This document shows, piece by piece, positions 12,718 to 31,481 of a stretch of 64,000 nucleotides of DNA; position 1 is the first letter of the stretch, and every line of letters starts with the position of its first letter. Location: the NCBI RefSeq assembly GCF_013408795.1, contig NZ_JACCCC010000001.1:3410001-3474000 (forward strand). Reading direction: 5' to 3'. Below the pieces are notes generated by a model, which had not been told where the DNA came from, did no database searches, and was given only the letters and a program-made list of their open reading frames with translations. A program made the position numbers and the translations under genes. The stretch comes from Spinactinospora alkalitolerans. GTDB taxonomy: Bacteria; Actinomycetota; Actinomycetes; Streptosporangiales; Streptosporangiaceae.

Positions 12718-14151
12718 TCAGGCCATGGGAGCGGCCAGCGGCCAGGGCCGCGCCGCCTCCAGGCGGGCGGCCGCCGCCAAAACCCGGGCGTCCTCGTGCC
12801 TGCGGCCGACGATCTGCAGGCCGACCGGTACTCCGTCGACCATCCCCGCCGGTACCGAGACGGCGGGATGTCCGGACAGGTTGAACGGGAACGTCAGACT
12901 GATGCTTCCCCAGTGGTTCACCGGCCGCCCCGCTATCTCGCTCGGCATGGGCCCCTCCGCGGCGAACGCCGGGGTCTGCGTGGTCGGTGTGACCAGGAAG
13001 TCGGCCTCTCGGAAGACCTCCGCCAGCGTCGCGACGATCCGGTGCCGCCCCTCTTGCGCGTCCACAAGGGCGTCGGCGTCGAGTTTCCTCGCCGCTTCCA
13101 CGTACTGCCGTGCCGTGCCGTCCATCTCGGCGAGCCGCGCCTCGGGCAGGCGGCGCAGCGCTTGATAGACGTCCAAAGCGACGAACGTCTGGTACGTCCT
13201 GCCGCAGTCGGGCCCCAGCCGCACCGGGAAGTCGACCGGGCGCGCGCCGATCGCGCGCACCAGGTCGCGTGCGGCGTCGGACGCCATATCGACCACTCGG
13301 CCATCGCACACCGTGAAGCCGAGGTCACCGCTCCAGAGCACGGCGGAGCCCTCCAGGTCGAGCCGGCCAAGAGTGTCGATCAGCCCCGGTTCCGGACGTG
13401 GCGGGGAGCCGGGATCCCATTCGTCCACTCCCATGACGCAGTCCAGGAACAGGGCGGTGTCGCGTACGGTGCGGGTGAGCGCGCCGTAGTTCTCGGTATG
13501 GGCCATACCGCCGTAGTCGGGACCTCTCGGGACGCGCCCGAACGTCGGTTTGAATCCCACGAGCCCGGTGAACGCGGCCGGGATGCGCAGCGATCCCGCG
13601 CTGTCGGTGCCGGTCGCCAGGGGGACCAGCCCGGCCGCCACGGCAGCCGCCGACCCGCCGCTGGACCCGCCGGGCGTGCGTTCCGGGTTCCACGGGTTGC
13701 GGCAGACGCCGTGCAGCGCCGACGCGGTGAAGGAGGCTCGCCCCATCTCGGGCGAGGCGGTGAGCCCGATCGGGACGGCCCCAGCGGCGCGGGCCCGCTC
13801 GACCATGGTGGCGGTACTGGTGGCGATCGTGTCGGCGAACGCCATGCTCGCCATGGTCAGCGGCCATCCCCGGACCGGCTGGATCTCCTTGACTCCCAAG
13901 GGGACGCCGGCCAGCGGCCCGGGGTCGTCTCCAGCCGCGATCCGGGCGTCGATCTCCGCCGCCCCGGCCGCCGCGCCCTCCTCGTCGACGTGCACGAACG
14001 CGCCAAGGCAGGGATTGACCTGCCTGATGGCCGCCAGTGTCCGCGCCACGACCTCCGTGGCCGGGACCTTCCGCGAGCGCACCCGCTCGGCCAGTACCGC
14101 GGCGCCGTCGAGTGCCGCCTCCGCTTCCGCATTCCGCTCGAGGCCCGTCAT
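12718..14151 (-). CDS. Amidase signature family hydrolase
   Basis: 477 residues from the ATG at 14151. The Ser-cisSer-Lys triad is visible as K88 (GVPLGVKEI), S163/S164 in GGSSGGSAAAVAAG and S187 in TDSAGSLRIPAAF. The sequence just before the nucleophile reads TDSAG instead of the more usual TDGGG. The fold hydrolyses amides, including C-N bonds of carboxamides and some lactam products. It overlaps the stop of the upstream permease by 4 bp (ATGA), so transporter and amidase are coupled and likely act on the same imported amide. The operon has the shared TGCACA repeat at 15756-15784. Confidence 0.92.
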   Translation of the reverse strand: MTGLERNAEAEAALDGAAVLAERVRSRKVPATEVVARTLAAIRQVNPCLGAFVHVDEEGAAAGAAEIDARIAAGDDPGPLAGVPLGVKEIQPVRGWPLTMASMAFADTIATSTATMVERARAAGAVPIGLTASPEMGRASFTASALHGVCRNPWNPERTPGGSSGGSAAAVAAGLVPLATGTDSAGSLRIPAAFTGLVGFKPTFGRVPRGPDYGGMAHTENYGALTRTVRDTALFLDCVMGVDEWDPGSPPRPEPGLIDTLGRLDLEGSAVLWSGDLGFTVCDGRVVDMASDAARDLVRAIGARPVDFPVRLGPDCGRTYQTFVALDVYQALRRLPEARLAEMDGTARQYVEAARKLDADALVDAQEGRHRIVATLAEVFREADFLVTPTTQTPAFAAEGPMPSEIAGRPVNHWGSISLTFPFNLSGHPAVSVPAGMVDGVPVGLQIVGRRHEDARVLAAAARLEAARPWPLAAPMA

Positions 14152-15662
14152 GACAGTCCTCCCACGAGCGCCGTGGCGACGACTAGGCCGGTGACCACGG
14201 GGAGGAAGAGCTTGCGCGCCAGGTCGATCACTGAGACGTTCGTGACCGCGGCAACGGCCACCAGGGAACTCCACACCACGAGCGTCCCTCCTCCGGTCCA
14301 GGTGGAGCCGTTCTGCGCGACGGCCGCGAGCGTGGCGACGTCCAACCCCACTTCCGGGCCGAGCGCGCTGGCGAGCGTGCCGGTGAACGGCAGGGCCGGC
14401 CAGCCCGAGCCATCCAGTCCGACCAGCATGCCGATGATCAGCATGGCGAAGAGGACGAAGAACGGGCTCTGCGGAATGTAGCCTTGCACGCTCATCACCG
14501 CGTCGAGCAGGAAAGCCGGCCCTTGTGCGCCTTCATCGAGACCGAGGATCGGGCCGGAGAAGTCCGACAGGCCGATGAAGACGAAGCCCGCCACCGGAAT
14601 GACGACTCCCATCATTCGGAAGGCCTCCGAAATACCGGAGACGAAATTGTCCGCGCATACCTCCAGCCATTCCCGGCGGTCACTGATGAGAGCGCTGACC
14701 AGCAGCAGCACGCCAGCCGTCCCGCCGACGAGTGGAGCGCCCAGTCCGCTGTCCACCGGCGGCACCAGCGAGGTGAGCTTGCCCAGTAGCAGGTACGCCA
14801 GCAGGACACCGAAGCAGCCGGGAACGAGGACGGCCAGAAACTGGGCACGGCGGCCGGGAGGAGGCTGCCCGTCTTGAGACTCGACCGCCTCGGTGTCCGC
14901 ACCGGCGAAGTCGGCCGTGTGAGAGGACGTGTCGCCGTCTCCCGTTGCCGCCGCCCGCGCCGCACCGGCGGCTGGCCGCGAGCGCGGCCGCAACGCGATC
15001 CACCCCGCGTCCGAGGCCGCCACTGCCCTCAGGTCGCGGCGTATGTACATCAGGTAGGACAGGGAGAGTGCGACGACTCCGGTGATCACGGCTATCAGCA
15101 GCGCGCGGTCAGCGATCCGTGCCGCGTCCACGCCCGCGCCGCTGGCGGAGAGGCCGGGTGCCACGCCCATGATGTAGTCGGTGGACAGGGCCATGCCCTG
15201 ACCCGCGATCGCGATCGCGATGGCGCATCCGAGTGGGGACAGCCCCACTCGCAGGGCGGCGGGGATGAGGATGGCGGCGATCAGCGGCAGCATCGGGGTC
15301 GGCCAGAATACGCTGGAAAGGCCGAAGGTCACCGCGGCCAGCACGATGTAGGCGGCGGCTCCAGTGCGCATCAGTCCCTGGAAGGGACGCACCATCAGTT
15401 GGTCGGCGCCCAGCGTCTGCAGTGTTCGCAGCAGCGCCAGCACGATCGCGATGATCATGAAGATTGTGAACAGCTCGGTGGCCGCGGTGAGGAATGCGGA
15501 GAAGATCGCCTGTAGGCCGGTCAGAACGCTGCCGCTGAAGGCTAGGGCGGTGAGGAATGTGGCGATGATCGCGGGGGCGACGATATTCTTCTTCGCCACC
15601 ACCAAGGCGATGACGGTGGCGATACCGCCGAGGTAGATCCAGTGAGCGGGGGTGAGTTCCAT
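14148..15662 (-). CDS. Integral membrane permease of unassigned family (paralogue 1)
   Basis: 504 residues from the ATG at 15662, which has GGGAGAAAGG upstream. About 11-12 hydrophobic segments are seen, with a hydrophilic, low-complexity loop near residues 235-285 that splits two halves. Distinctive stretches are GQGMALSTDYIMGVAPGLSA and GLDGSGWPALPFTGTLASAL. They recur nearly unchanged in the protein at 16104-17786. I do not recognise a named family; the two-half plan with re-entrant Gly/Pro-rich motifs resembles ion-transporter-superfamily carboxylate carriers. Coupling to the amidase points to uptake of an amide or organic anion. Confidence 0.8.
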   Translation of the reverse strand: MELTPAHWIYLGGIATVIALVVAKKNIVAPAIIATFLTALAFSGSVLTGLQAIFSAFLTAATELFTIFMIIAIVLALLRTLQTLGADQLMVRPFQGLMRTGAAAYIVLAAVTFGLSSVFWPTPMLPLIAAILIPAALRVGLSPLGCAIAIAIAGQGMALSTDYIMGVAPGLSASGAGVDAARIADRALLIAVITGVVALSLSYLMYIRRDLRAVAASDAGWIALRPRSRPAAGAARAAATGDGDTSSHTADFAGADTEAVESQDGQPPPGRRAQFLAVLVPGCFGVLLAYLLLGKLTSLVPPVDSGLGAPLVGGTAGVLLLVSALISDRREWLEVCADNFVSGISEAFRMMGVVIPVAGFVFIGLSDFSGPILGLDEGAQGPAFLLDAVMSVQGYIPQSPFFVLFAMLIIGMLVGLDGSGWPALPFTGTLASALGPEVGLDVATLAAVAQNGSTWTGGGTLVVWSSLVAVAAVTNVSVIDLARKLFLPVVTGLVVATALVGGLS

Positions 15663-16103: not shown

Positions 16104-17786
16104 CTAGAAAACGGCGATCGCGACCGTGGTGGAGATGATCAGTCCTGCGACCACGGGAAAGAACGCGATGCGAACCAGGTCGATGACGGAGATCCGGGCG
16201 AAACCGGCCACCGCGAGAAGCGAGGACCAGGCGATGAGCACCCCGCCGCCGGTCCAGATGGAGCCCATCTGACCGATCGCCGCGAGCAGCGCCGGATCGA
16301 AGCCCACCGCGGGGCCGAGGCTGCCGGCCAAGGCTCCGGTGAGCGGGAGTCCGGAGAACCCCGAGCCATCGAGACCGGTGATCATTCCAATGATCAGAAG
16401 GCTGAATCCGACCACGAACGGATTGCTGGGAATGGCCCCTTGCGCCGCTGTGACCAGCTCGAACAGGAAGCTGGGGGCGGGCGTCCCTTCGGTGAGGCCC
16501 ATGATGGACCCGGCGAAGTCGGAATTGCCGATGAAGAAGAAGCCGGCGATCGGGATGACCACCCCCATCGCCTTGACCGAGAATATGAGCCCGTCAACGA
16601 TGTGGGCGGCACAGCTCTCCAGTGCCCGGTGTCCGTCCAGCGATATCGACGCCATGAGCAGAATCAGCGCGACGACCCCTCCGACCAGCGCCGCCGCGTC
16701 GTTGCCGAGGAGCTCGGGAACCAGGTCGGTGAACTTCCCCAGCATCATGTAGACGACCAGCCCGATGAGTACGAGCGGGACCGCTACAGCGAATGACTTG
16801 GAGCGGAGCACGGGCGTGCGCGCCGCCTCCGCCGTGTCCTCGGCCCGTTCCCGGCCTCCCCCGGCATCGTCGGCGGTCACCGGCGCGGGCTCCGGGTCTC
16901 CGATGCGCTGCGTGGGCACCGGGGACCCGGGATTCGACGGCGCGGCCCCGGTCCCCGCCCCGCCTCCGGAGCCGCTCGTCGCACCGGCCCCAGCCGGACC
17001 GCTGTTCCCCGCTCCGACCTCGGCCGGCTCCGGGGCGCGCGCGGGTCCCGCCGCCGGCTCAGGAGCCGGTTTCGCCGATGCCGCGGCGGCCTTCCTGCCG
17101 ATCACGGCATCGGTCCTGGCCTCCCAGCGCTCCAGCAGTTTCGGATCGGGGCGCACGATGGTGCGCCGAATCATCAGGTAGCCCAGCAGCAGAGCGGTGA
17201 GTCCGGTGATCGAGGAGAGCACCAGCGCGTAGTCCGCGACGCGGCTCGCGTCCGTGCCCGCCGCGGTCGCTGACAGTCCTGGGGCGACCTGGATGACGTA
17301 GTCGCTGGAGAGGGCCATCCCCTGGCCGGCGATCGCCATGGACAGGGCGGCCGCCAGCGGCGACAACCCGGCGCGGACGGCAGCGGGGAACAGGATGGCC
17401 CCGATCAGCGGAACGGCGGGAGTGGGCCAGAAGAAGAGACTGATGATGAAGGACACCAGCGCGATGACCCAGAAGGAGGTGTGCCCGTTGTTCATGACGT
17501 AGCGGAACGGCTCGATCATCCGCCGGTCCGCCCCGAGCGCCCGTAGTGCCCCCAGCAATGCGGTGACGAAGGCGATGATGAGGAAGATGTTGAACAGCTC
17601 CGCCGCCGCGGTAAGGCTTGCTTTAAAGATGGACTGCAGGCCTGCTGCGAAGCTTCCGGTAAATGCCCATGCGGTCAGAAAAGTCGCCACGACCGCGGGG
17701 ATCACGACATTCTTCTTGGTGGACATCACGAAAATGATGACCACTATTCCAGCCAAATAGATCCAGTGCGCGGAAGTCAGGACCAT
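16104..17786 (-). CDS. Integral membrane permease of unassigned family (paralogue 2)
   Basis: 560 residues from the ATG at 17786, with GGAGGGG directly upstream. It is clearly homologous to the permease at 14148-15662: GQGMALSSDYVIQVAPGLSA, FFWPTPAVPLIGAILFPAAV and GLDGSGFSGLPLTGALAGSL all have counterparts there. It differs by a longer Pro/Ala/Gly-rich linker at about residues 225-320 between the two membrane halves. It is divergent from the gamma-glutamyltransferase-like gene, with the repeat TGCACA-N17-TGTGCA in between. Two copies of one carrier in one island suggest either two related substrates or a heteromeric transporter. Frame extension upstream to 18119 was rejected because it lacks coding character. 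Confidence 0.82.
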   Translation of the reverse strand: MVLTSAHWIYLAGIVVIIFVMSTKKNVVIPAVVATFLTAWAFTGSFAAGLQSIFKASLTAAAELFNIFLIIAFVTALLGALRALGADRRMIEPFRYVMNNGHTSFWVIALVSFIISLFFWPTPAVPLIGAILFPAAVRAGLSPLAAALSMAIAGQGMALSSDYVIQVAPGLSATAAGTDASRVADYALVLSSITGLTALLLGYLMIRRTIVRPDPKLLERWEARTDAVIGRKAAAASAKPAPEPAAGPARAPEPAEVGAGNSGPAGAGATSGSGGGAGTGAAPSNPGSPVPTQRIGDPEPAPVTADDAGGGRERAEDTAEAARTPVLRSKSFAVAVPLVLIGLVVYMMLGKFTDLVPELLGNDAAALVGGVVALILLMASISLDGHRALESCAAHIVDGLIFSVKAMGVVIPIAGFFFIGNSDFAGSIMGLTEGTPAPSFLFELVTAAQGAIPSNPFVVGFSLLIIGMITGLDGSGFSGLPLTGALAGSLGPAVGFDPALLAAIGQMGSIWTGGGVLIAWSSLLAVAGFARISVIDLVRIAFFPVVAGLIISTTVAIAVF

Positions 17787-18085: not shown

Positions 18086-19702
18086 GTGAATACGGCACCA
18101 CGCGATGTCCAGATCCCACCGCGGGGCCCCGCGGTCTCCCATGGCGGTATGGTCGCCGCCGGCCACCCCTCCGTGAGCATGGCGGGCGCGCGCGTGCTCG
18201 CCGATGGCGGCAACGCCGTCGACGCCGTCCTCGTCATGGCCGCGGTCTCCTGGCTGGTGCTCCCCGGCCAGTGCGGTATCGGAGGCGACGCCTTCGCCCT
18301 GTATCGCGGCCCTGACGGCCGCGTGACCTCGTTCGGCGGGAGCGGCTACGGCCCAGATGGCGCCGGCACCGGTTTCTACCGCGAGCTGGGGCTTACGGCG
18401 ATCCCTCTCAGCGGAGCACTGGCCGTGGCGGTTCCCGGCGCGGTCGCGGCCATCGCCGCGCTGCACCGTGCGGGCGCCTCCCGACCTCTCGCGGAGCTGT
18501 GGGCACCGGTCGCCACCATGGCGGAGACGGGCGTGCCCTGCACCGCCAAGACCCACGACGACGTCTCCCAGCATGCCGAGTCGCTCGCTCGCGACCCCGA
18601 TGCCGCCCGCGCCTTCCTCCCCGGTGGGCGCCCGGTCCGGACGGGACAGCGGGTACTGCATCCCGCCCTGGCGCAGACGCTGCGCCGGCTGGCCGACGAT
18701 CCGGCCTGCCTGTACCGGGGGGAGCTCGGCGAACGCGCGGTAGCGCTGCTCACCGCCGCGGGCGCCCCCTTCTCCGGGGCCGAGTGGGAGGCGGGCGCCG
18801 ACGTCTCGGGCGAACCCTCGATCACCGCGGAGTACGGGGGCCTACTGGTGCACCAGACGCCGCCGCCCACCCCGGGGTGGATGGTCCTGCAGCAGGCCGG
18901 AATATGCGCAGACCGGCTCGGCTCACTGCCCTGGCTCGGATCCGACGCCGTGCACTGGCTCGCGAGCGCGGCGCGCACCTCCTTCGCCGACCGCGCGCGA
19001 GCGGGGTCCGACACCCCCTTCTGGCGAACTCTGCTCGAACCGGAGTCCTTGCGGGTGCGCCGGGAGCGCATCGAGAACGGGACGGCGCCCCGGCCCGGTG
19101 CGATGGACATCGACGGCGACACCACCTCAATGGTCGCGGTGGACGGTGCCGGACGCGCCGTCGGCCTGATCCATTCGCTGGCCCACACCTTCGGCGCCCG
19201 GCTTTCGGTCCCCGGCACCGGGATCATGCTGAACAACCGGTTGGGACGCGGGGCCTACCTCGCCGAAGGGCACCCCAACGCGGTGGCCCCGCGCCGCAGG
19301 CCGCTGCACACGCTGAACGCCTGGCTCGTCACCGATGACGTGGGGGAACTGCGACACATCGGCAACGTCCCCGGCGGTGACGGCCAGGTCCAGTGGAACA
19401 CCCAGCTGCTCTCGCACCTGATCGATCACGGTACCGATCCGTACACAGCGGTCAGCGCCCCGCGTTTCACCGTCTTCCCCGGCAGCGACGCCGACGTCCT
19501 CGAACAGGCCCCGGAGCTGCGGTGCGAATCCCGTTTGGACCCCTCTGTGCTGCGGCGGCTGCACGACCTCGGACACCCGGTGCGTCGGGTGGGCGCATGG
19601 GGGGCCGGAGGCAGTGCGCAGGTGGTGAGTCTCGACGCCGCCACCGGCGCCCTGCTCGGCGGCTCCGATCCCCGCCAGGACGGGGTGGCGATCGGTGTCT
19701 GA
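18086..19702 (+). CDS. Gamma-glutamyltransferase homologue, cytoplasmic
   Basis: 538 residues from a GTG at 18086, the normal GGT length. The N-terminal part has ASVSMAG-like and GGNAVDAVLVMAAVSWLVLP, and GGDAFALYRGPDGRV. The autoprocessing region reads DIDGDTTSMVAVDGAGRAVG, with Thr346 as the probable nucleophile; the usual T-T-H after the cut site is T-T-S here. No signal peptide or membrane anchor is present, unlike classical periplasmic or secreted GGTs. GGT-fold Ntn hydrolases cleave gamma-glutamyl or acyl amides. It overlaps ridA by 8 bp and leads the operon with ETF and aldehyde dehydrogenase, so an intracellular amide-cleaving role in the pathway is likely. Confidence 0.88.
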   Translation: MNTAPRDVQIPPRGPAVSHGGMVAAGHPSVSMAGARVLADGGNAVDAVLVMAAVSWLVLPGQCGIGGDAFALYRGPDGRVTSFGGSGYGPDGAGTGFYRELGLTAIPLSGALAVAVPGAVAAIAALHRAGASRPLAELWAPVATMAETGVPCTAKTHDDVSQHAESLARDPDAARAFLPGGRPVRTGQRVLHPALAQTLRRLADDPACLYRGELGERAVALLTAAGAPFSGAEWEAGADVSGEPSITAEYGGLLVHQTPPPTPGWMVLQQAGICADRLGSLPWLGSDAVHWLASAARTSFADRARAGSDTPFWRTLLEPESLRVRRERIENGTAPRPGAMDIDGDTTSMVAVDGAGRAVGLIHSLAHTFGARLSVPGTGIMLNNRLGRGAYLAEGHPNAVAPRRRPLHTLNAWLVTDDVGELRHIGNVPGGDGQVQWNTQLLSHLIDHGTDPYTAVSAPRFTVFPGSDADVLEQAPELRCESRLDPSVLRRLHDLGHPVRRVGAWGAGGSAQVVSLDAATGALLGGSDPRQDGVAIGV

Positions 19703-20165
19703 GGCCGAGTTCTCCCCCGCCGCCGCACCGCGCCCCCAGGGGCGCTACGTGACCGCCGTCGCCGGAGCGGGCCTGCTCGTCAGCGCCGGCATGACGCCGC
19801 GGGCCGGGGGCGAGTTGGTGCTACGCGGCAGGGCCGGTGCGGAGCTGGACACCGTAGCCGCGGCCGGTGCGGCCCGGATCGCCGCCCGCAACGCGCTGGC
19901 GGCGCTCGCCGGCATCGCCGGCGGCCCGGACGGGATCGGCCGTCTGTTGCGGATGACCGTGTACGTGGCCTGCACCGACGACTTCACCGCCCTGTCGGCG
20001 GTCGCGGACGGCGCCTCCGCGGCACTCGCCGAGATGCACGGGGCCGAGGCGCTGCCCGCCCGCAGCGCGATCGGCGTCCGCGCGCTCCCCGACGGCGCTC
20101 CGGTCGAGGTGGAACTGATGGCCGCGGCCGTGACCGAGAACCCCGCACGGAGGAGACAACCGTGA
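19695..20165 (+). CDS. RidA/YjgF family protein
   Basis: 156 residues from a GTG at 19695. The RidA core is visible: GRYVTAVAGAGLLVSAGMTP, ARNALAALAGIAGGPDGIGR, MTVYVACTDDFTALSAVADG and the active-site strand LPARSAIGVRALPDGAPVEV followed by EL, which keeps the substrate-binding Arg and a conserved Glu. RidA proteins hydrolyse reactive imines and enamines released by amine oxidation. It overlaps the gene before (8 bp) and after (4 bp, GTGA), so all three are translationally coupled. An imine-forming oxidation step in this pathway is implied. Confidence 0.9.
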   Translation: MSEAEFSPAAAPRPQGRYVTAVAGAGLLVSAGMTPRAGGELVLRGRAGAELDTVAAAGAARIAARNALAALAGIAGGPDGIGRLLRMTVYVACTDDFTALSAVADGASAALAEMHGAEALPARSAIGVRALPDGAPVEVELMAAAVTENPARRRQP

Positions 20166-21984: not shown

Positions 21985-23445
21985 GTGACACCGACGCATG
22001 AGGGACGCAACTACATCGCAGGCGAGTGGGTCGCCTCGGCCTCGGGCCGGACCTTCGACCGCCGCAACCCCGCCGACCAGGACGACCTGGTCGGCGTCTT
22101 CCCCGATTCCACCGCCGCGGACTCAGCCGATGCGGTGTCCGCCGTGGCCGACGCGGCACCTGCCTGGGGCCGAGTCCCGGCGCCCGAGCGGGCGCTGGTC
22201 CTGCAACGCGCCGCCGACATCTTGGAGCGCCGAGCCGACGAGCTCGCCGTCGAACTGGTCCGGGAGGAGGGCAAGACCCTCGCCGAAGCCACCGCGGAGA
22301 CCCGCCGGACACCGCAGAATCTGCGCTTCTACGCCGGTGAGGCGCTGCGGATCGCCGGTGACTCCTTCCCCTCCGAGGGACAGGGCGCGGTCTACACCAC
22401 GCGCGAACCCGTGGGTGTGGTGGGCGCGGTGACCCCGTGGAACTTCCCGCTCAACATCCCCTCGCGCAAGCTCGGCCCGGCGCTGGCCGCGGGCAACGGC
22501 GTGGTGTACAAGCCCTCTCCGGTCTCGCCGCTGTTGGGGCAGCGGCTGGTGGAGGCACTGCTGGAGGCGGGGCTCGCACCGGGGGCGATCGCGCTGGTGC
22601 AGGGCGGCGCGGAGGCCGGGGCCGCCGTGGTGGGCGACCATCGGGTGGGCGCGGTCACGTTCACCGGGTCGACCGAGACGGGCCGCCGGATCCACAGCGC
22701 CGTCGGACCCTCGCGGCGCTGCCAACTGGAGATGGGCGGCAAGAACCCGGTGCTGGTCCTGCCCGATGCCGACCTGGACCGCGCGACCGCGCTGATCGTC
22801 AAGGGCGCCTTCGGCCTCAGCGGACAGGCCTGCACCGGGACCAGCCGGGTCCTGGTGCACGAATCGGTGCACGACCGACTGGTGGAACTCCTCGCGGCGG
22901 CCGCGGACTCGCTGACGGTAGGGCCCGGCCTCGGCGACGGCGTCGACATGGGGCCGCTCGCCGCCGACTTCCAGTTGCGCAAGACGCTCGACTACGTCGC
23001 GATCGGGTGCAAGGAAGGCGCCGAACCGGTGGCCGGGGCGCAGCGCCCCGCCGGCCCCGGCACGGACCGGGGGTTCTTCGTCCGGCCGACGGTGTTCACC
23101 GGGTGTACCACGGACATGCGGATCGTCCGGGAGGAGATCTTCGGCCCCGTCATCGCGGTGCAGCGGTTCGGCACCTTCGAGGAGGCGCTCACCCTCGCCA
23201 ACGACTCCGATTACGGGCTGGCCGCCGGGATCGTCACCCGCGATCTGAATCGGGCGTTGGAATTCGCCCGGAGCTCGAAAAACGGACTGGTGAAAATCAA
23301 CCAACCGACCACGGGAATGGGCATGACCGTCCCCTTCGGCGGCCTCAAGGAATCCAGCACCCAGACATTCAAAGAGCAGGCCGGCAATTCGATGATGATG
23401 TTCTACACCCAGGAGAAGAGTGTTTACATCTCCGCTCTTTCCTGA
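21985..23445 (+). CDS. Aldehyde dehydrogenase (2,5-dioxovalerate/KGSADH-like)
   Basis: 486 residues from the GTG at 21985 with AGGGGG just upstream. ALDH landmarks are clear: VGAVTPWNFPLNIPSRKLGP, FTGSTETGRRI, catalytic Glu in QLEMGGKNPVLVLPDA and catalytic Cys in GLSGQACTGTSRVLV, EEIFGPVIAVQRF and the C-terminal PFGGLKESSTQTFKEQ. The GQACTGTSR form and overall length are typical of alpha-ketoglutarate semialdehyde-type dehydrogenases. It starts 14 bp after the ETF gene and probably oxidises a semialdehyde made when the amine substrate is deaminated. Its exact aldehyde is not readable. Confidence 0.93.
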   Translation: MTPTHEGRNYIAGEWVASASGRTFDRRNPADQDDLVGVFPDSTAADSADAVSAVADAAPAWGRVPAPERALVLQRAADILERRADELAVELVREEGKTLAEATAETRRTPQNLRFYAGEALRIAGDSFPSEGQGAVYTTREPVGVVGAVTPWNFPLNIPSRKLGPALAAGNGVVYKPSPVSPLLGQRLVEALLEAGLAPGAIALVQGGAEAGAAVVGDHRVGAVTFTGSTETGRRIHSAVGPSRRCQLEMGGKNPVLVLPDADLDRATALIVKGAFGLSGQACTGTSRVLVHESVHDRLVELLAAAADSLTVGPGLGDGVDMGPLAADFQLRKTLDYVAIGCKEGAEPVAGAQRPAGPGTDRGFFVRPTVFTGCTTDMRIVREEIFGPVIAVQRFGTFEEALTLANDSDYGLAAGIVTRDLNRALEFARSSKNGLVKINQPTTGMGMTVPFGGLKESSTQTFKEQAGNSMMMFYTQEKSVYISALS

Positions 23446-23747: not shown

Positions 23748-24461
23748 ATGCAGGAATTGTTGCAACGGGACGAATTCCGCCAGGCCCTCCAGGACGCCAT
23801 CAAGGGCCGGGAGGCCAAGAACGCGTCATTCAGCAAGGCATGGGCCGAAGGGACGCTCAAGCACGAGCACTTCGCTCGCTGGGCTGAGAACCACTACCAC
23901 TACGTGGGCCCCTTCGCCGATTACCTCTCCTACGTCTACGCCAACATCCCCGACGCCTTCACCGGGGCGAAGGACTTCACGCTGCAGAACATGTACGAGG
24001 AGGAGCTGGCCGACATCCGGCACACCGATCTGCTCATCCGGTTCGCTGAGGCCTGCGGGACCACGCGGGAGCGGATCGAGGATCCCTCCAACATGAATCC
24101 CGTCACGCGTGGACTGCAGTCCTGGTGCTACGCCGTCGCGATGCGCGAGCACTTCGTGGTCGCCACCGCGGCCCTGGTAGTGGGGCTGGAGTCCCAGGTG
24201 CCCAGCATCTACCGCAAGCAGATCGTTCCCCTGCGGGAGGTCTACGGGTTCACCGAGGACGAGATCGAGTTCTTCGACCTGCACATCACCTCCGACGAGG
24301 TGCACGGCGAGCGGGGCTACCAGATCGTTCTCGACCACGCCGACACCCCTGAACTGCAGCAGCGCTGCCTGCAGATGTGCCGCTGGGGCGCGGAAATGCG
24401 CTTCTCCTACACACAGGCCCTCTACGACACCTACGTCAAGCCCGACCTGATGACCGCCTGA
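23748..24461 (+). CDS. Heme-oxygenase-like diiron protein (HDO; TenA/PqqC/CADD-like)
   Basis: 237 residues, all-helical TenA/PqqC fold. All six metal ligands of the CADD-type diiron site are present with matching spacing: E85 and H92 (in MYEEELADIRHTDLL), E148 (GLESQ), then H179, D183 and H186 (FFDLHITSDEVHGERGY). HDOs use a diiron centre and oxygen to decarboxylate, N-oxygenate or cleave C-C bonds of small acids and amines. The start at 23748 is supported by GAAAGGGAG. Downstream genes encode Rieske protein, ferredoxin reductase and another Rieske protein, a natural electron supply for the diiron site. I am confident of the family; the substrate is unknown and could be an amine linked to the amidase and RidA upstream. 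Confidence 0.85.
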   Translation: MQELLQRDEFRQALQDAIKGREAKNASFSKAWAEGTLKHEHFARWAENHYHYVGPFADYLSYVYANIPDAFTGAKDFTLQNMYEEELADIRHTDLLIRFAEACGTTRERIEDPSNMNPVTRGLQSWCYAVAMREHFVVATAALVVGLESQVPSIYRKQIVPLREVYGFTEDEIEFFDLHITSDEVHGERGYQIVLDHADTPELQQRCLQMCRWGAEMRFSYTQALYDTYVKPDLMTA

Positions 24462-24472
24462 GGACGGTCCGG

Positions 24473-24511
24473 CCGGCGGCGCCGCCTCCCTCCGGGAACG
24501 CGCCGCCGGCG
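24473..24511 (+). terminator. Stem-loop after the diiron-protein gene
   Basis: A perfect 11-bp inverted repeat, GCCGGCGGCGC at 24473-24483 and GCGCCGCCGGC at 24501-24511, 11 bp past the stop. No T-run follows. It may be a partial terminator that lowers expression of the downstream electron-transfer genes relative to the diiron protein, or an RNA-stability element. Confidence 0.5.
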
Positions 24512-24575
24512 CCGATCGCCCGCCGAAACCCCCGGCCCGCCGCCATGGGCCGGTGAGCGCAGTTGGGACAGCAGA

Positions 24576-24935
24576 TTGACCGAATGGGTAGAGGTCGCCA
24601 CGCTCCAGGAACTCCGCCGACGCAAGCGCAAGCTCGTCATCATCGGCGACACCCGGATCGCGCTCTTCCTCGTCGATGACCGGGTGTACGCGCTGGCCGA
24701 CACCTGCGTCCACAAGCAGAGGTCATTGACCAAGGGCACGGTCCTGCACGGCCGGGTCATCTGCCCCGGCCACCAGTGGGCCTTCGACCTCGAAAGCGGC
24801 CGAGCCGATGACCGCGACGAGTGCCAGCCGACCCACGACGTGCGGATCGACGACTCCACCGTCTACCTCGATCCCCGACCCCACCCCGCCCCGCACAGGG
24901 CGCTGCAGGAAGCGCGAATGTCCAAGGAGCCGTGA
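24576..24935 (+). CDS. Rieske-type [2Fe-2S] ferredoxin 1
   Basis: 119 residues. The Rieske cluster ligands are C44-x-H46 (DTCVHKQRSL) and C63-x-x-H66 (VICPGHQWAFDLESG), in the bacterial ferredoxin arrangement with a tail beyond residue 90. The start is a TTG at 24576; no in-frame ATG or GTG occurs nearby, and the ribosome site is weak (GGGACAG). It overlaps the ferredoxin reductase start by one base (TGATG), so the two are coupled. It probably relays electrons from the reductase to the diiron protein or another oxygenase. Confidence 0.88.
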   Translation: MTEWVEVATLQELRRRKRKLVIIGDTRIALFLVDDRVYALADTCVHKQRSLTKGTVLHGRVICPGHQWAFDLESGRADDRDECQPTHDVRIDDSTVYLDPRPHPAPHRALQEARMSKEP

Positions 24936-26152
24936 TGCTGGAAACCATCCTGATCGTCGGCGCCGGCCAGACCGCCGCCGTCGCGATACGCACCCTTCGC
25001 CGCCGCGGCTTCGACGGGCGCATCATCCTCATCGGTGCCGAAGCCGATCTGCCCTACCAGCGCCCGCCGCTGTCAAAGGAGTACCTGCTCGGTGAGCAGG
25101 ACCGCTCCGAACTGGACCTGCTGCCGGCGCAGTGGTGCGAGCACAACGGCGTCGAGACCTGCACCGGAGCGGAAGTCCGGCGCGTGGACACCGGCGGGGG
25201 AGGCGTCGAGCTGTCCGATGGTTCGCGGATCAGCGGCGATGCCGTGCTGCTGGCCACGGGAGGCCGCCCTCGGCGGCTGAGCGTCGACGGCGATGAGCAC
25301 GTGCACTACCTGCGCACCCTCGCCGACGCCGACCGGATCCGCACGTTGATCCGCCCCGACGCACACGTCATCGTGGTCGGTGCGGGCTTCATCGGTTCGG
25401 AGCTGGCCTCCTCCGCTCGAACTCGGGGAGCCGCCGTGACCGTGCTGGAACAGGCCGCCTGTCCGTTCGGAAACGTCGTCGGTCCTGTGATCGGAGACGT
25501 GTGCGCCGCGGCGCAACGGGAACACGGAGTGGACCTGCGCACAGCGACGACGGTCACCGAGGTCGGTCGCACCTCCGCCGGAACGTTCGTGCGCACCGGA
25601 TCCGGAGCGGTGATCGAGGGAGACATCGTGGTAGCCGGCGTCGGAATGCTGCCCAATGCCGAGCTCGCCCGCGATTCCGGGATCGCGACCGACGACGGCG
25701 TCCTGGTGGACGAGTACTGCCGGACCTCCGCGGCGAACGTCTTCGCAGCAGGCGATGTGGCCCGCCACCATCACCCGCTGTTCGGCCGGCGCATGCGCGT
25801 GGAGCACTTCGACAACGCCAGCAAGCAGGGTATGACGGCCGCCAAGAACATCCTGGGCAGACCGACGGCCTACACGGATCCGCACTGGTTCTGGTCGGAC
25901 CAGTTCGGTCTCAATCTGCAGTGCATCGGGCGCACCTCCAACGCCGACGACATCGTCATCCGCGGCCGGCTCGACGCCTTCGACTTCACCGCCTTCTACC
26001 TGGAGGAGGGGGTGCTCCGGGCGGCGTTCACCGTGGAGCGCGGCGGCGACGTGCCCCTTGCCGGGGCGCTCATCACCCAGCAGGTCAGGCCGGACGTCGA
26101 CGCGCTGCGCGACGAGGACCACGACCTCGCCGATCTGCTCACGACCGCATAA
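24935..26152 (+). CDS. FAD-dependent ferredoxin reductase (oxygenase-type)
   Basis: 405 residues from the ATG at 24935. Two dinucleotide folds are seen: FAD motif LIVGAGQTAAVAIRTLRRRG at the start and NAD motif VIVVGAGFIGSELASSARTR at about residue 147. The FAD-closing motif TSAANVFAAGDVARHHHP and the C-terminal reductase domain with HWFWSDQFGLNLQCIGRTSN are typical of BphA4/PuxA-type reductases. It takes electrons from NADH and reduces a Rieske or [2Fe-2S] ferredoxin. Coupling to the preceding Rieske gene makes that its probable partner. No oxygenase alpha subunit is nearby, so the diiron protein is the likely terminal acceptor. Confidence 0.93.
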   Translation: MLETILIVGAGQTAAVAIRTLRRRGFDGRIILIGAEADLPYQRPPLSKEYLLGEQDRSELDLLPAQWCEHNGVETCTGAEVRRVDTGGGGVELSDGSRISGDAVLLATGGRPRRLSVDGDEHVHYLRTLADADRIRTLIRPDAHVIVVGAGFIGSELASSARTRGAAVTVLEQAACPFGNVVGPVIGDVCAAAQREHGVDLRTATTVTEVGRTSAGTFVRTGSGAVIEGDIVVAGVGMLPNAELARDSGIATDDGVLVDEYCRTSAANVFAAGDVARHHHPLFGRRMRVEHFDNASKQGMTAAKNILGRPTAYTDPHWFWSDQFGLNLQCIGRTSNADDIVIRGRLDAFDFTAFYLEEGVLRAAFTVERGGDVPLAGALITQQVRPDVDALRDEDHDLADLLTTA

Positions 26153-26245
26153 GCCCTCACGCACGTCGCGTTCCTTCCCGATGTGGGACCACGGTCCCAC
26201 CCGATCCCAGCGGCCGGACCCCGGCCCGCGTGGAGGAGACATTCC

Positions 26246-26602
26246 ATGGAGTTCGTTCGGGTCGCCCGCTCCGGACAGATCCCCGAGGGGATCGTCCGCC
26301 GCTTCTTCGTCAACGGCGTGGAACTCGCCGTTGCCCGCTCCGAAGAGGGAGCGGTGCACGTCATGTCCAACTACTGCACACACCTGGACTGCCTGCTGTC
26401 CTCCGGCAGGGTGACCGACGACGGGTTGCTCTGCTCGTGCCACGGCAGCGTCTTCGACTTCGATTCCGGGGAACCCATCACCCCACCGGCGACTCGGCCC
26501 GTGCGCGTGTTCGAGGCCAAGGAGGAGGACGGCCAGGTCTACGTCGCCCTCCCTGCCGAGACCCAGCGCACGGAACGGCCCAAGCGGCGGCTGAGCACGT
26601 AG
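26246..26602 (+). CDS. Rieske-type [2Fe-2S] ferredoxin 2
   Basis: 118 residues from ATG 26246 with GGAGGAGA upstream. Cluster ligands are C44-x-H46 (NYCTHLDCLLSSG) and C63-x-C65-H66 (LLCSCHGSVFDFDSGEP); two extra cysteines (C49 and C65) sit beside the ligands, as in high-potential Rieske proteins that form a disulphide. It differs clearly from Rieske 1, so the two may have different potentials or partners. It follows the reductase by about 90 bp. One of them could receive electrons from the reductase and the other could deliver them to the diiron enzyme. Confidence 0.87.
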   Translation: MEFVRVARSGQIPEGIVRRFFVNGVELAVARSEEGAVHVMSNYCTHLDCLLSSGRVTDDGLLCSCHGSVFDFDSGEPITPPATRPVRVFEAKEEDGQVYVALPAETQRTERPKRRLST

Positions 26603-26674: not shown

Positions 26675-28054
26675 GTGAATCGAAGAGAACCGGCCGGCGA
26701 GGGGCGGCGCAACCGCTGGGCACTGCTGCCCCTGCTCCTCGCGACGTTCACCGGGACAGTGGCGAACAGCATCGTCAACGTCCCGCTCGCCCTGATCGTG
26801 GCCGACCTCGGCGTCACGGTCGCGGCGGGGTCGCTGATCGTCGTGGCCTTCGCCGCGGTTCTGGCCTCGCTGATGCCCGTCACAGGGTGGCTCGCGGACC
26901 GCTGGGGGCGCCGCAGAGTGTTCGTCTGCGCGATGGGGGCCATGGCGGGCTCCTCCGCTGGGGCCGCGTTCGCGCCCGATCTCGGGATCCTCGTGCTGTG
27001 CAGGGCCGCGCAGGGAGCCGCGTGCGCGGCCGTTCTTCCCACCGTCATGGCGCTGCTGGTGACCTCCTCGGGAGAGCGGCGCCGAAGCCGGACGCTCGGA
27101 CTGTGGGCGGCGGCGAACGGCCTGGGCCAGGCGGCCGGGCCGGCGCTGGGCGGGGCCCTGGCCACCTGGTTCGGCTGGCGCGCGGTGTTCTGGCCAATCG
27201 TCGCGCTGGCGCTGCTCGCCCTGGCCGGAGCGCTGTGGCTGCTCCCCCGGGACGCGCCCCGGCCGCTGCGCCTGGACTGGGGCGGCGCCCTGATGCTCAC
27301 CCTGGCCGCCGCCCTGATGATGGGCTCGGCGGCGGCGACCGCCCCGCTCGGACCGGCATCCCCCCTCGTCTGGGGGAGCGCTTTCGCCGGGATCGCCGCG
27401 ACGTGCGCGTTTCTGCTGGTGGAACGGGGACGGGCGGACCCGTTCCTGCATCTGCACCTGCTGCTGGAAACGCGCTACCTCCGCTCGTGCCTGGCCGCAT
27501 TGGCACAGATGTTCTGCCTGGGAGCTCTGCTGATCGGGATCCCCCTCTACCTCACCGGCCAGAAAGGCGCCACCCCCCTGGCCTCGGGCCTGGTCCTGCT
27601 GAGCATCCCCGTGACGATGGCGCTGCTCGCTCCGGTGGTCGGTGCCCTCAGCGATCGCTGGGGCGCCCGCCACGCCCTGCGGTTCGGGCTCGTCTTGCTC
27701 ATCATCGGTCAGCTCCTGACCGTGGCCGCGGTGGCTCTCGATTCGGGAGTGGGTCCCTTGCTCATCACCGCCCTGATCGCCGCGGGTGCCGGCATGGCGT
27801 CCGTGCAGACCCCCGCGGCGACCGGGGCGTCGCGTTCGCGCCTGGGCCGGCACGGGACCGGACTCGGGCTGTTCAACCTGGTGCGCTTCGGCGGTTCGGG
27901 GCTGGGGGCGGCATGGGTCGCACTGGCGGTGGACCGGTCGCCGATGTTCGGATCGGCCTTCGCCGTCTGCGCAGGGGTCGCGGTCATCGGGCTCGTCGGC
28001 GCGTTCGCGGGTCGGGACCCCGGCCCCGATACGCGCCCGGCGCCTCGGAACTGA
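26675..28054 (+). CDS. MFS transporter, DHA2/EmrB-QacA type
   Basis: 459 residues from a GTG at 26675. About 13-14 hydrophobic segments and the DHA2 motifs are visible: NSIVNVPLALIVADLGVTVA in TM1, GWLADRWGRRRVFVCAMGAM after TM2, and the motif-C-like GLGQAAGPALGGALATWFGW in TM5. DHA2 members export drugs, metals or metabolites in exchange for protons. As the last plus-strand gene of the diiron and Rieske block, it may export a product or a toxic intermediate. It converges on the PucR gene, whose stop lies 26 bp away. Confidence 0.9.
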   Translation: MNRREPAGEGRRNRWALLPLLLATFTGTVANSIVNVPLALIVADLGVTVAAGSLIVVAFAAVLASLMPVTGWLADRWGRRRVFVCAMGAMAGSSAGAAFAPDLGILVLCRAAQGAACAAVLPTVMALLVTSSGERRRSRTLGLWAAANGLGQAAGPALGGALATWFGWRAVFWPIVALALLALAGALWLLPRDAPRPLRLDWGGALMLTLAAALMMGSAAATAPLGPASPLVWGSAFAGIAATCAFLLVERGRADPFLHLHLLLETRYLRSCLAALAQMFCLGALLIGIPLYLTGQKGATPLASGLVLLSIPVTMALLAPVVGALSDRWGARHALRFGLVLLIIGQLLTVAAVALDSGVGPLLITALIAAGAGMASVQTPAATGASRSRLGRHGTGLGLFNLVRFGGSGLGAAWVALAVDRSPMFGSAFAVCAGVAVIGLVGAFAGRDPGPDTRPAPRN

Positions 28055-28080: not shown

Positions 28081-29856
28081 TCAGTGCGGGAACACATCAT
28101 TGGCGGGCGGCGCGAGTTCCTGTTCGATGGCGGAGGCGATGGAGCCCAGGGTGTCGATGTGGTGCGCCAGCCACACCATGAACTGGGTATCCGCCGAACG
28201 CAGGTCCCGACCCAGCACCCGAGAGGCGCGCTCCAGTTTGTAGAGCATGGTGTTGCGGTGCAGTCGCATCGACCGCGCCGCCGCATTGAGGTTGCCCCCC
28301 GATCTGATATAGGCGAGGACGACCTGCTCCAAGTCGCCCGTCTGGCTGTGGACGTCCCGCAGCGGTGTCAGCACTTCATCGACGAAGGCCCGCCCCCGAC
28401 GGCTCCCACCCAGATCCCTGAGCACCGCGAACACGCGGAGTTCGGAATAGCCGCAGACCGGATCGGCCTCCAGGCGGCGGGCCAGCCCCATGGCGACCCG
28501 GGCTTCGTAGTAGCTCGTCGACACCCCGGCCGCCCCCAGCCCGCAACGCCCGTAGGAGACCCTGACCTCGGATCCCAGACGGCGACTGAAAGCCCGGTGC
28601 AACCGCTGCGCGAACCGGGTGATGGTCTTGTCCTCCTCGTCGCCCTGCAACGAGTCCGGTCCTGAAGGCAGCGGGTCGATCACCACCAGCATCGTCCCCA
28701 TCACCGTGGCAAGGCGCGGCCTGTCACCGGGGGGATCCAGGGTCTGGGCGATCCGTGCCATGGAGGCTCCCCGCTGCATGGTGGACCGGTCCGATGGAAT
28801 CAGTGCGGAGGAGGCCACGATGTGGACGGCGTAGCGGCCCTCGATGTCGAACTCCTGGTGCCGTGCACGCGCTCGGAGTTCGTGCTCGTCGGCGAACCGA
28901 CCGTGCACGAGCGCGTAGATGAAGTCACCGCGCGTCCGTTCCTCGGCGGTGCGCATGGACCACTGGCGCAGCATCTCCGATCCGATGAGGGTCGCCCCGT
29001 GCTCGACGATGATCCGGTGCTGGGCGAGATCGTGGCGCTCGGGCGGCCGGTGTCCCTCCGCCACCGCGAGCCACCCGTAAACCTCTCCCGCGACCATAAT
29101 CGGAGCGCTGAGAACGTGAGCAGGGGTCCATTCCTCGCCCCCGCCGCTCTCCAACACGATGCCGTGCGTGGGAGGGCCGTGTCCCTGCTCGTCGCCTTCA
29201 AGGGGGATCTCACCGAGGCGCTCGGCCAAGGGGACCGCGATCGACGACGGATCAGCGTTCCACGCTCCGGGCGGCACCGCCGAGGCGATGACCTCGCCGG
29301 CCGCACCGAGCACCAGGACCGGACTCCGCGCCAGGCCCGTGATGGCCTGGGCCATAGCCGGGATCCCCGCCCCCCGGGAGAGCACTTCGGCCAGCGTGCG
29401 GTGCACCCTCATGCTGTATTCGAGGACGTGCGCGGTCTGTGCCAGCGCCTTCTGCCCGACCAGTCGGCTGACCGCCGGATAGTCGGCGGCGCACGGGAGC
29501 ACGACCAAGGGCAGGCCCCGCTCCCTCGCCGCAGAGGATGCCGCGGCGAGTTCCATGGGATCGCTATCCGGCGGCCACGCCAGCAGGGCCGATCCGGCGC
29601 GATCTGCCACCTCCCCGACCACGGAGCAGGCGCCACTGGGATCCCGGATGGCGGTGGTGGACACGTGGACGGCGACTCCGGCGAGGTCGTTCTTCGAGCG
29701 CGCCCCTCCCACGTTGATCTCCGACCAGGGCAGGCACCACGCCACCTGCGTCCGGCCGATGTCGCCTTCGAGAACGAGGGCGGAGCGCAACAGCGGCTCG
29801 GCGAGCAGGTCCTCGACGCTGACACGGCCTTCGGGGCCGCTGCGGTCATGTGCCAT
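28081..29856 (-). CDS. PucR family transcriptional regulator
   Basis: 591 residues from ATG 29856. The N-terminal two-thirds hold sensor domains (a PucR-type purine-catabolism-like N-domain and a GAF-like part with PIMVAGEVYGWLAVAEGHRP). Residues about 420-500 are a GGDEF-like CdaR domain. The C-terminal HTH is the characteristic PucR one: GNLNAAARSMRLHRNTMLYK then LERASRVLGRDL. PucR proteins usually activate catabolic genes for purines, amines or amino acids in response to a metabolite. It faces the GlcG/HbpS gene divergently, and I infer that it reads the TGCACA-N17-TGTGCA repeats of the island. Confidence 0.9.
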   Translation of the reverse strand: MAHDRSGPEGRVSVEDLLAEPLLRSALVLEGDIGRTQVAWCLPWSEINVGGARSKNDLAGVAVHVSTTAIRDPSGACSVVGEVADRAGSALLAWPPDSDPMELAAASSAARERGLPLVVLPCAADYPAVSRLVGQKALAQTAHVLEYSMRVHRTLAEVLSRGAGIPAMAQAITGLARSPVLVLGAAGEVIASAVPPGAWNADPSSIAVPLAERLGEIPLEGDEQGHGPPTHGIVLESGGGEEWTPAHVLSAPIMVAGEVYGWLAVAEGHRPPERHDLAQHRIIVEHGATLIGSEMLRQWSMRTAEERTRGDFIYALVHGRFADEHELRARARHQEFDIEGRYAVHIVASSALIPSDRSTMQRGASMARIAQTLDPPGDRPRLATVMGTMLVVIDPLPSGPDSLQGDEEDKTITRFAQRLHRAFSRRLGSEVRVSYGRCGLGAAGVSTSYYEARVAMGLARRLEADPVCGYSELRVFAVLRDLGGSRRGRAFVDEVLTPLRDVHSQTGDLEQVVLAYIRSGGNLNAAARSMRLHRNTMLYKLERASRVLGRDLRSADTQFMVWLAHHIDTLGSIASAIEQELAPPANDVFPH

Positions 29857-29927: not shown

Positions 29928-30115
29928 GAGCGATATCGATCGACGGTTTTCCATTCAGAGATCCGGCGATCGGCCTCCGAATAGACAACAGCTTCAATCA
30001 CAGGAGAAGTATTTTCAATAGCGGGTGACCGGTTTTGCACCTCGAAATCAATCTCCGGTTCCACCACAACACGGAGGCAACAAAGTAATGGCACCTTCCT
30101 CTTGAAGGAGTGGGT

Positions 30116-30574
30116 ATGCACACGGTGTACCGATTGACCCTCGAAGACGCCCTGGTGGTACTGCGCGCAGCCGAGCAGGAAGCCGAGAGGATCGGAGTTC
30201 GGCAGACCATCTGCATCGCAGATGACGGTGCCCATCCCATCGCATTGCACAGGATGACCGGGGCGCGATTGACCGGAGTCGAAATCGCCATGGCCAAGGC
30301 ATTCACAGCTGCCGGCCACCAGCGTGACACGCATAAATTCAATGAACCGCCGGACGGCCCCGCCCTCCCCGGCAACGAGGCGTTTGGGATCAGCCACATG
30401 CACCCGGGACGCTTCGCCGTCTTCGTCGGCGGGTTCCCCATCGTGTACGAGGAGCAGGTGATCGGCGCCGTCGGTGTCAGCGGCGGCAACGGCGACCAGG
30501 ACAAGGCGGTCGGCGCCGCGGCGCTGGCGGCCTTCCGCCACCGGGTCGCCGCGGTCGGTGCACCCACTGCCTGA
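30116..30574 (+). CDS. GlcG/HbpS family (DUF336) protein
   Basis: 152 residues. The ATG at 30116 follows AAGGAG at 30105-30110. The HbpS/GlcG fold is clear from YRLTLEDALVVLRAAEQEAE, CIADDGAHPIALHRMTGARL, the glycine-rich PGNEAFGISHMHPGRFAVF and the end GGFPIVYEEQVIGAVGVSGG. HbpS binds heme in Streptomyces and signals redox stress; other members occur beside degradative oxygenases with unknown roles. Its place beside PucR and the iron-based oxygenase block suggests a small-molecule or heme/iron-handling function. No signal peptide is visible. Confidence 0.9.
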   Translation: MHTVYRLTLEDALVVLRAAEQEAERIGVRQTICIADDGAHPIALHRMTGARLTGVEIAMAKAFTAAGHQRDTHKFNEPPDGPALPGNEAFGISHMHPGRFAVFVGGFPIVYEEQVIGAVGVSGGNGDQDKAVGAAALAAFRHRVAAVGAPTA

Positions 30575-30650: not shown

Positions 30651-31481
30651 GTGTCACGCACGGCTATGCGTGCTGTCAACGAGCTTGTGCAGCTCGTGTC
30701 CGCGGGCCTGTTTCCCCTGGATACTGAGGATGTCAGCAGCGAGGACGGGATGATCCGGATCCGGGCGCGCACTCCCGAGAGGCCGGCGCCCTGCCCAGTG
30801 TGCGGGACTCGTTCCGCTCGGGTGCACGCCTTCCGAGCGCACCGTGGCCGATGCGCCGGTGGACTGCCGGCGCGTGGCCGTGGTGGTGCGGGTGCGCCGC
30901 CTGGTGTGCCCCATTCTCGGCTGTGAGCGACAGACCTTCCGGGAGCAGCTTCCCGGCGTGCTGGAGCGCTACCAGCGGCGCACGCCCCGGCTGGCCGCTC
31001 AGATCGGCGCGGTCGTGAGGGAGTTGGCCGGTCGGGCGGGCGCGAGAGTGATGTCCGCCCTGGCCATGCAGACATCGGAGAACACCGCCTGCGCGCGCTG
31101 AAGCGCTTGGCGCTGCCGGTGCGGCCGATGCCGCGGGTGCCGGAGGTGGACGACTTCGCCCTGCGCAAGAGCCACCGGTATGCCACCGTGCTCACCGACG
31201 CGGCGACCAACGTCCGCGTCGATGTCTTGGCCGACCGCAGCGCCGACACGTCCGCGGCGTGGCTGCGCGACCATCCCGGCGTCGAAGTCGCCGTCCGCGA
31301 CGGGGCGGCCTCCTATCCCGAGGCCGTGCGCCGGGCGCTTCCCGACGCCCTCCAGGTGGCCGACCGCTGGCACCTGTGGCACGACCTCTCCGAGGCCGTA
31401 GCCAAAGAAGCCGCGGCTCACAGCGGATGCTGGGCCAAGGCCGGGCCACCACGCCAAAAGTTGACTCGGCAGGAGACCTGA
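30651..31481 (+). pseudogene. ISL3-type transposase, frameshifted and truncated
   Basis: Three reading frames together give an ISL3 transposase. Frame one from 30651 has the N-terminal zinc finger APCPVCGTRSARVH. After a frameshift near 30835 comes the second zinc-finger half, VRRLVCPILGCERQTFREQL. A further shift near 31100 leads to VPEVDDFALRKSHRYATVLT and VRDGAASYPEAVRRALPDAL with QVADRWHLWHDL, the catalytic D-D part. The C-terminus and the final Glu are missing, and no terminal repeats were found. It is an inactive remnant that ends close to the broken isomerase gene. Confidence 0.8.

Follow-up and report, generated by a model that had tools for sequence, protein, structure and literature searches.

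A heme-oxygenase-like diiron protein encoded with two Rieske ferredoxins and a flavin reductase in Spinactinospora alkalitolerans: a predicted NADH-dependent oxygenase

Results

The window analysed here is a stretch of 64,000 nucleotides of contig NZ_JACCCC010000001.1 of Spinactinospora alkalitolerans, a G+C-rich part of a 6.68 Mb single-contig actinobacterial genome, and positions are those of the window unless the genome is named. At 23748-26602 the window encodes, in this order, a heme-oxygenase-like diiron oxidase/oxygenase (HDO), a Rieske ferredoxin (Rieske 1), a ferredoxin reductase and a second Rieske ferredoxin (Rieske 2). This four-gene set had been proposed, with the same extent, in a preliminary description made from the sequence, and the Pfam matches agree with it: the HDO matches Haem_oxygenas_2 (6.5e-37) and, more weakly, TENA/THI-4/PQQC, the two Rieske proteins match the Rieske family (3e-15 for Rieske 1 and 9.1e-19 for Rieske 2), and the reductase carries Pyr_redox_2 (8.9e-62) and Reductase_C (1.4e-21). 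The ATG of the reductase gene shares one base with the stop codon of Rieske 1, whose TTG start is supported by relatives that begin with M-x-E-W-V.

Fold and metal site of the HDO

An AlphaFold2 model of the HDO, built from 49 sequences (two plasmid-record rows excluded), is all-helical, with a mean predicted local distance difference test score (pLDDT) of 95.6 and a predicted template-modelling score (pTM) of 0.90. Its best structural match is Chlamydia CADD (Z 28.3, 1.5 Å over 213 residues), and further matches are PqqC, UndA (Z 25.7), HrmI (Z 24.9), FlcD, BesC (Z 21.8) and PolF (Z 20.0); the fold is the same as that of CADD and UndA, the two proteins singled out for comparison in the preliminary description. 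The ranking by fold does not name the reaction, since PolF, HrmI and UndA are all alike in this respect.

The six metal ligands assigned earlier to the HDO (E85, H92, E148, H179, D183, and H186) align with E81, H88, E142, H174, D178, and H181 of CADD. They are unchanged throughout the 87 distinct members of the family, drawn from Actinomycetota and Burkholderiales, and they are among just 12 invariant columns once HDOs of 25-34% identity join the alignment. This conservation supports a predicted two-metal site with three histidine and three carboxylate ligands (3H/3C). In NePabS, the counterparts of CADD Tyr141 and Tyr170 set the preference for Mn/Fe versus Fe/Fe (PMC11965152); the corresponding residues of the HDO are Leu147 and Phe175, for which that rule predicts an Fe/Fe site. 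An additional invariant residue, Asp58, is by its spacing to SznF a possible candidate for an extra carboxylate ligand.

The likeness to CADD covers the fold and the ligands, but not the residues that CADD sacrifices. The sacrificial Tyr27 (Y25 of NePabS) is Ser29, and the amine-donor Lys152 (K159 of NePabS) is Gln158, in all 87 family members, whereas both Tyr and Lys are present in 20 of 22 more distant HDO sequences. In the HDO of the window, the radical-path residues Tyr43, Tyr47, and Trp92 of CADD are replaced by Trp45, His49, and Leu96. Accordingly, the label "CADD-type" of the preliminary description fits the metal ligands and the scaffold and does not extend to self-sacrifice. The NCBIfam models give a similar picture, with 92.1 bits for the CADD model TIGR04305 (cut-off 200) and 50 bits for the PqqC equivalog model TIGR02111 (cut-off 240), and within the phylum a sharp gap separates the family, whose members share 73% identity or more, from the next HDOs, which reach 34% at most. 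Retention of the ligands together with loss of the self-sacrifice residues implies that the HDO would turn over repeatedly on an external substrate, and would hence need re-reduction.

We note that other HDOs occur in the same phylum. Actinomycetota rather often encode CADD/PabS-like HDOs that have both Tyr and Lys (loci L102-L125), and the presence of these two residues suggests self-sacrificing p-aminobenzoate synthesis there. A third type (L108:377-1063 and L132:4164-4841) has the six ligands and Leu/Gly at the CADD Tyr/Lys positions; at both loci an aldehyde dehydrogenase homologue lies no more than ~6 kb away, and there is no Rieske gene. The S. alkalitolerans genome itself encodes, at genome positions 2720189-2720719, a second PF14518 HDO-like protein that scores 198.6 bits to the family, above the HDO studied here.

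The electron-transfer genes and their linkage to the HDO

The reductase is nearest to ferredoxin reductases that serve oxygenases, namely 3lxd, BphA4, and putidaredoxin reductase. The CxH...CxxH motif is complete in both Rieske proteins and in 147 of 147 orthologues, and the Rieske proteins split into two clades with support of 1.0 and zero misplaced members. Distances among HDOs correlate with those among the partners (r 0.76-0.79, a correlation to which shared species history contributes), and the HDO is the slowest-evolving component, with a mean distance of 0.14 against 0.31-0.46 in the redox partners.

A GTDB genome scan returned 510 relatives, of which the best 80 were examined, 62 of them with full flanks. 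Rieske 1, the reductase and Rieske 2 stand beside the HDO in every one of the 62 full-flank loci, which excludes chance, and the reductase is linked to the HDO in 79 of the 80, the lone exception being at a contig end. The linkage supposed in the preliminary description is thus found across genomes, and none of the 62 loci holds an HDO of this family without its partners. Three arrangements occur: in Streptosporangiales the aldehyde dehydrogenase gene precedes the HDO gene; in Mycobacteriales and others the order is HDO, Rieske, reductase, aldehyde dehydrogenase, Rieske, GGT and Rid; and in Streptomyces and Pseudonocardia it is HDO, Rieske, reductase and Rieske, with the remaining genes divergent. 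Through all three, the adjacency of HDO, Rieske 1 and reductase is unbroken, and the HDO with its electron-supply genes is strongly conserved in soil actinobacteria. As a control, we took loci of CADD-type HDOs from the same phylum over longer flanks: none contains a Rieske gene, and just two have a reductase homologue, more than 5 kb away. A search of viral contigs gave nothing. In Mycolicibacterium (L048 and others), the whole operon lies beside rplN, rplX, and rplE, apparently inserted by the ribosomal operon.

An unrelated electron chain in Burkholderiales

Megaplasmids of Cupriavidus and Caballeronia encode an HDO that is 69-74% identical to that of the window. There, the HDO gene is followed by genes for an aldehyde dehydrogenase, an HbpS-like protein and a BenC-like flavin/2Fe-2S reductase, and its vicinity also holds genes for two 2Fe-2S ferredoxins of the plant type, for the membrane protein seen at the actinobacterial loci, and for an ornithine-cyclodeaminase-family protein. 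The Rieske genes, the glutathione-reductase (GR)-type reductase, and the Rid and GGT-like genes are absent from these Burkholderiales HDO loci. A hybrid locus (L130) from another actinobacterial family, with an HDO of 74% identity, combines Rieske and plant-type ferredoxin genes and also includes genes for an ornithine-cyclodeaminase-family protein, an HbpS-like protein and an aldehyde dehydrogenase, and a distant GGT-like gene. Such an exchange of the Rieske chain for an unrelated one around the same HDO would be expected were the HDO the electron acceptor. This partner swap, a natural experiment on electron delivery, is the strongest indication that electrons go to the HDO.

Neighbouring genes and the substrate class

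The remaining genes of the locus are listed in Table 1 together with their occurrence among the relatives.

Table 1. Features at the HDO locus of S. alkalitolerans and their occurrence in relative loci
Feature	Position	Strand	Relative loci	Basis or remark
HDO, 237 amino acids, predicted terminal oxygenase	23748..24461	+		Pfam, alignment, AlphaFold2 model
Rieske [2Fe-2S] ferredoxin 1, 119 amino acids	24576..24935	+		TTG start; Pfam
FAD/NAD ferredoxin reductase with Reductase_C domain	24935..26152	+		BphA4/putidaredoxin-reductase type; Pfam
Rieske [2Fe-2S] ferredoxin 2, 118 amino acids	26246..26602	+		Clade apart from ferredoxin 1 in all genomes
Aldehyde dehydrogenase	21985..23445	+	61/62 full	Nearest NCBIfam 2,5-dioxovalerate dehydrogenase, below cut-off
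ETF-domain protein, 602 amino acids	20162-21970	Same as HDO	0/80	Between Rid and aldehyde dehydrogenase genes
RidA/Rid-family protein	19695..20165	+	59/62 full	
GGT-fold Ntn hydrolase	18149..19702	+	57/62 full	
Multi-spanning membrane protein, likely uptake transporter	16104..17744	-	60/62 full	
Second, paralogous membrane protein	14148..15662	-		Adjoins amidase
Amidase (PF01425), accessory	12718..14151	-	14/62 full	
MFS transporter (DHA2-like)	26675..28054	+	57/62 full	
PucR/CdaR-like transcriptional regulator	28081..29856	-	61/62 full	Divergent
HbpS/GlcG-like (PF03928) protein	30110..30574	+	60/62 full	Relative of EfgA

The GGT-like protein, when aligned to E. coli GGT, keeps the catalytic Thr. 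Residues R114, N411, D433, S462, and S463 of the E. coli enzyme, which bind the gamma-glutamyl group, are replaced by Ser, Ala, a residue other than Asp, His, and Thr, so the protein need not act on gamma-glutamyl compounds. Gamma-glutamyl chemistry by way of this gene is not supported, and judging from these residues the protein would be better called simply an amidohydrolase. For the aldehyde dehydrogenase, the top-scoring model lies below its cut-off and the solved relatives are generic, so no substrate is named from its family. None of the 80 relatives has the ETF-like gene, which we therefore regard as inserted locally and leave without a role in the system.

The two paralogous membrane proteins (504-546 amino acids) match no Pfam or NCBIfam family, and a membrane protein of this kind is kept alongside the HDO genes in actinobacteria as well as in Burkholderiales; they are probably an undescribed transporter family. 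At two loci (L085/L087) a LivFGHMJ-like ABC transporter takes the place of the membrane protein. The HbpS-like protein is related to EfgA (PDB 6bws), a formaldehyde sensor (PMC8153426). Adjoining its gene, an ISL3-type transposase fragment at 31107-31481 suggests past mobility near the operon end.

Since both the aldehyde dehydrogenase (61/62) and the EfgA relative (60/62) are conserved, an aldehyde product is suggested, and an imine intermediate fits the presence of Rid in most actinobacteria and of the ornithine-cyclodeaminase-family protein in Burkholderiales. The preliminary description had pointed to oxidation of an amine or amino-acid-like substrate, a claim that we keep in weaker form: Rid (59/62) and the aldehyde dehydrogenase fit the passage from amine or imine to aldehyde, whereas the amidase is found in just 14/62 loci and the GGT-like protein is without the gamma-glutamyl residues. 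An amine, amide or amino-acid-like compound is still the likeliest class of substrate, with a chance that we put at about even.

Discussion

From this combination of scaffold, metal ligands, linkage and exchanged partners, the HDO is probably the terminal component of a soluble, NADH-dependent oxygenase; the chemistry proposed below is much less certain. It is likely, too, that the system represents a class of multicomponent oxygenase that is new: a diiron protein of the heme-oxygenase fold would be supplied by two dedicated Rieske ferredoxins together with a GR-type reductase, and would open a widespread, undescribed catabolic pathway of actinobacteria, while in Burkholderiales an unrelated chain would drive the same HDO. 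The preliminary description had called it a three-component oxygenase. The HDO does stand as the sole candidate for O2 activation in the conserved operon, with a dedicated chain from NADH through reductase and Rieske protein, but the chain may count as four components because two distinct Rieske ferredoxins are both conserved.

In the proposed mechanism, electrons would pass from NADH to the FAD reductase, on to one or both Rieske ferredoxins, and from there singly to the diferric HDO. Once diferrous, the HDO would take up a small external substrate in the pocket occupied in CADD by the sacrificial Tyr, and would react with O2 to give a peroxo-type intermediate, as occurs in other HDOs (PMC13108848). 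Hydroxylation or cleavage of the substrate next to nitrogen would yield an aldehyde and an amine, imine or ammonia. RidA would hydrolyse the reactive imine or enamine, the aldehyde dehydrogenase would oxidise the released aldehyde, and the HbpS/EfgA-like protein may sense or buffer it. The GGT-fold hydrolase, and in some strains also the amidase, would cleave an amide before or after the oxygenase step, with the unnamed permease importing the substrate and the PucR-like protein controlling expression of the operon.

Several points weigh against this proposal, which rests on sequence, a structural model and gene context. Most characterised HDOs run on chemical or generic reductants. No HDO studied so far needs a protein effector, according to a 2026 review (PMC13108848). 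The mirror-tree correlation reflects shared species history too, and a simple chain does not explain two different Rieske ferredoxins. Aldehyde-linked amine catabolism is read from the neighbour genes, among which the GGT-like protein is no more than a putative amidase and the aldehyde dehydrogenase reaches the cut-off of no specific model; moreover, the GGT-like and RidA steps are not universal, because the Burkholderiales are without both genes.

It is possible, if somewhat doubtful, that the HDO inserts no oxygen and is instead an oxidase/desaturase or C-C lyase like UndA, BesC or MboA, with the Rieske proteins just re-reducing the cluster between turnovers. C-C cleavage and desaturation are the usual reactions of the 3H/3C HDOs characterised to date (PMC13108848), MboA requires MboB for its second desaturation (PMC13185094), and an aldehyde lost by C-C cleavage would suit the aldehyde dehydrogenase and the conserved EfgA relative. 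A catabolic operon with RidA and hydrolases, however, suits hydroxylation next to nitrogen at least equally well.

The Rieske and reductase genes might also serve some other enzyme, either a distant ring-hydroxylating oxygenase or a second enzyme of the operon, leaving the HDO to act alone. Two genes for Rieske oxygenase alpha subunits (PF00848) do exist in the genome, at 77 kb and 2.8 Mb from the HDO gene, but the nearer encodes BenA (836 bits, over cut-off) with its own BenC beside it, and the farther has a reductase paralogue ~9 kb away; in view of their distance and their own partners, they are rejected as recipients. Among the conserved neighbours of the HDO there is neither a ring-hydroxylating alpha subunit, as the preliminary description had observed, nor any other oxygenase. 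Given also the adjacency in 62/62 loci and the Burkholderiales, which exchange the redox genes and keep the HDO, this reading is unlikely.

That the HDO is a ligand-binding or regulatory protein of the heme-oxygenase fold, a fold common to PqqC and TenA, engaged in no redox catalysis, is very unlikely in view of its six invariant ligands and of a family more conserved (0.14) than its redox partners (0.31-0.46). Least probable of all is a divergent self-sacrificing p-aminobenzoate synthase of the CADD/PabS type: the closest solved relatives are indeed CADD and NePabS, but Ser29 and Gln158 in 87/87 members speak against CADD-type synthesis, which is rejected on that ground, the radical path is changed, TIGR04305 scores 92 against 200, the conserved neighbours include no folate genes, and a protein that turns over once has no use for a recycling chain.

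The proposed oxygenase joins features of several known systems. CADD and NePabS (PDB 1rcw, 8va9, and 9pj4) share with the HDO the fold, the six 3H/3C ligands with their spacing, and an ESQ(V/I)P motif; the HDO differs from them by the absence of the sacrificial Tyr and Lys and of the radical-path aromatics, by its dedicated Rieske and reductase genes, and by a context that is catabolic rather than that of folate. UndA, BesC, HrmI, PolF, and SznF belong to the same superfamily but are biosynthetic and not described with Rieske chains. MboA-MboB, the mangotoxin acetylenase and the nearest case in print, likewise pairs an HDO with an NADH-dependent redox partner of its own, a flavin/2Fe-2S reductase, and is possibly the first characterised pair of this kind (PMC13185094). 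The BenC-like reductase of the Burkholderiales is of the same general class as MboB, by the description of the latter, whereas the actinobacterial HDO has a Rieske pair and an FAD reductase of the glutathione-reductase fold, and lies among catabolic genes instead of in a biosynthetic cluster.

Small Rieske proteins are known to feed non-Rieske oxygenases, as in AibH1H2 (PMC10401708) and isoprene monooxygenase (PMC9004368). The 2-aminoisobutyrate hydroxylase AibH1H2-AibG-AibF of Rhodococcus is, like the system proposed here, a catabolic dimetal non-Rieske monooxygenase that depends on a flavoenzyme and a small Rieske protein for its electrons, and for which its authors applied the same genomic logic (PMC10401708), but its terminal component is a Mn/Fe protein of the amidohydrolase superfamily, not of the heme-oxygenase fold. 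The four-component soluble diiron monooxygenases IsoMO and T4MO likewise comprise a diiron oxygenase, a Rieske ferredoxin and an NADH reductase (PMC9004368), but with a ferritin-like multi-subunit hydroxylase and an effector protein; neither of these is found among the conserved genes of the HDO system, whose HDO carries PF14518. Our literature search, in which subscription journals were little covered, turned up neither this operon nor a Rieske-fed HDO. The novelty is that of a known scaffold with a new partner combination in a new physiological role.

About a dozen HDOs have been characterised, almost all of them from the biosynthesis of natural products, and the first claim of a dedicated redox partner dates from as recently as 2026 and concerns MboAB. 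The present family appears to be catabolic and multi-turnover, with a complete NADH chain, and a single operon supplies the reagents for an assay, with hundreds of related loci in existence (510 found, 80 examined). If the proposal is true, the system shows by what route cells re-reduce an HDO. It would also relate a self-sacrificing scaffold to a catalytic one, in which invariant Ser and Gln occupy the places of Tyr and Lys, and would indicate a degradation pathway not yet described, one that would be common in Mycolicibacterium, Rhodococcus, Gordonia, Pseudonocardia, and Actinomadura.

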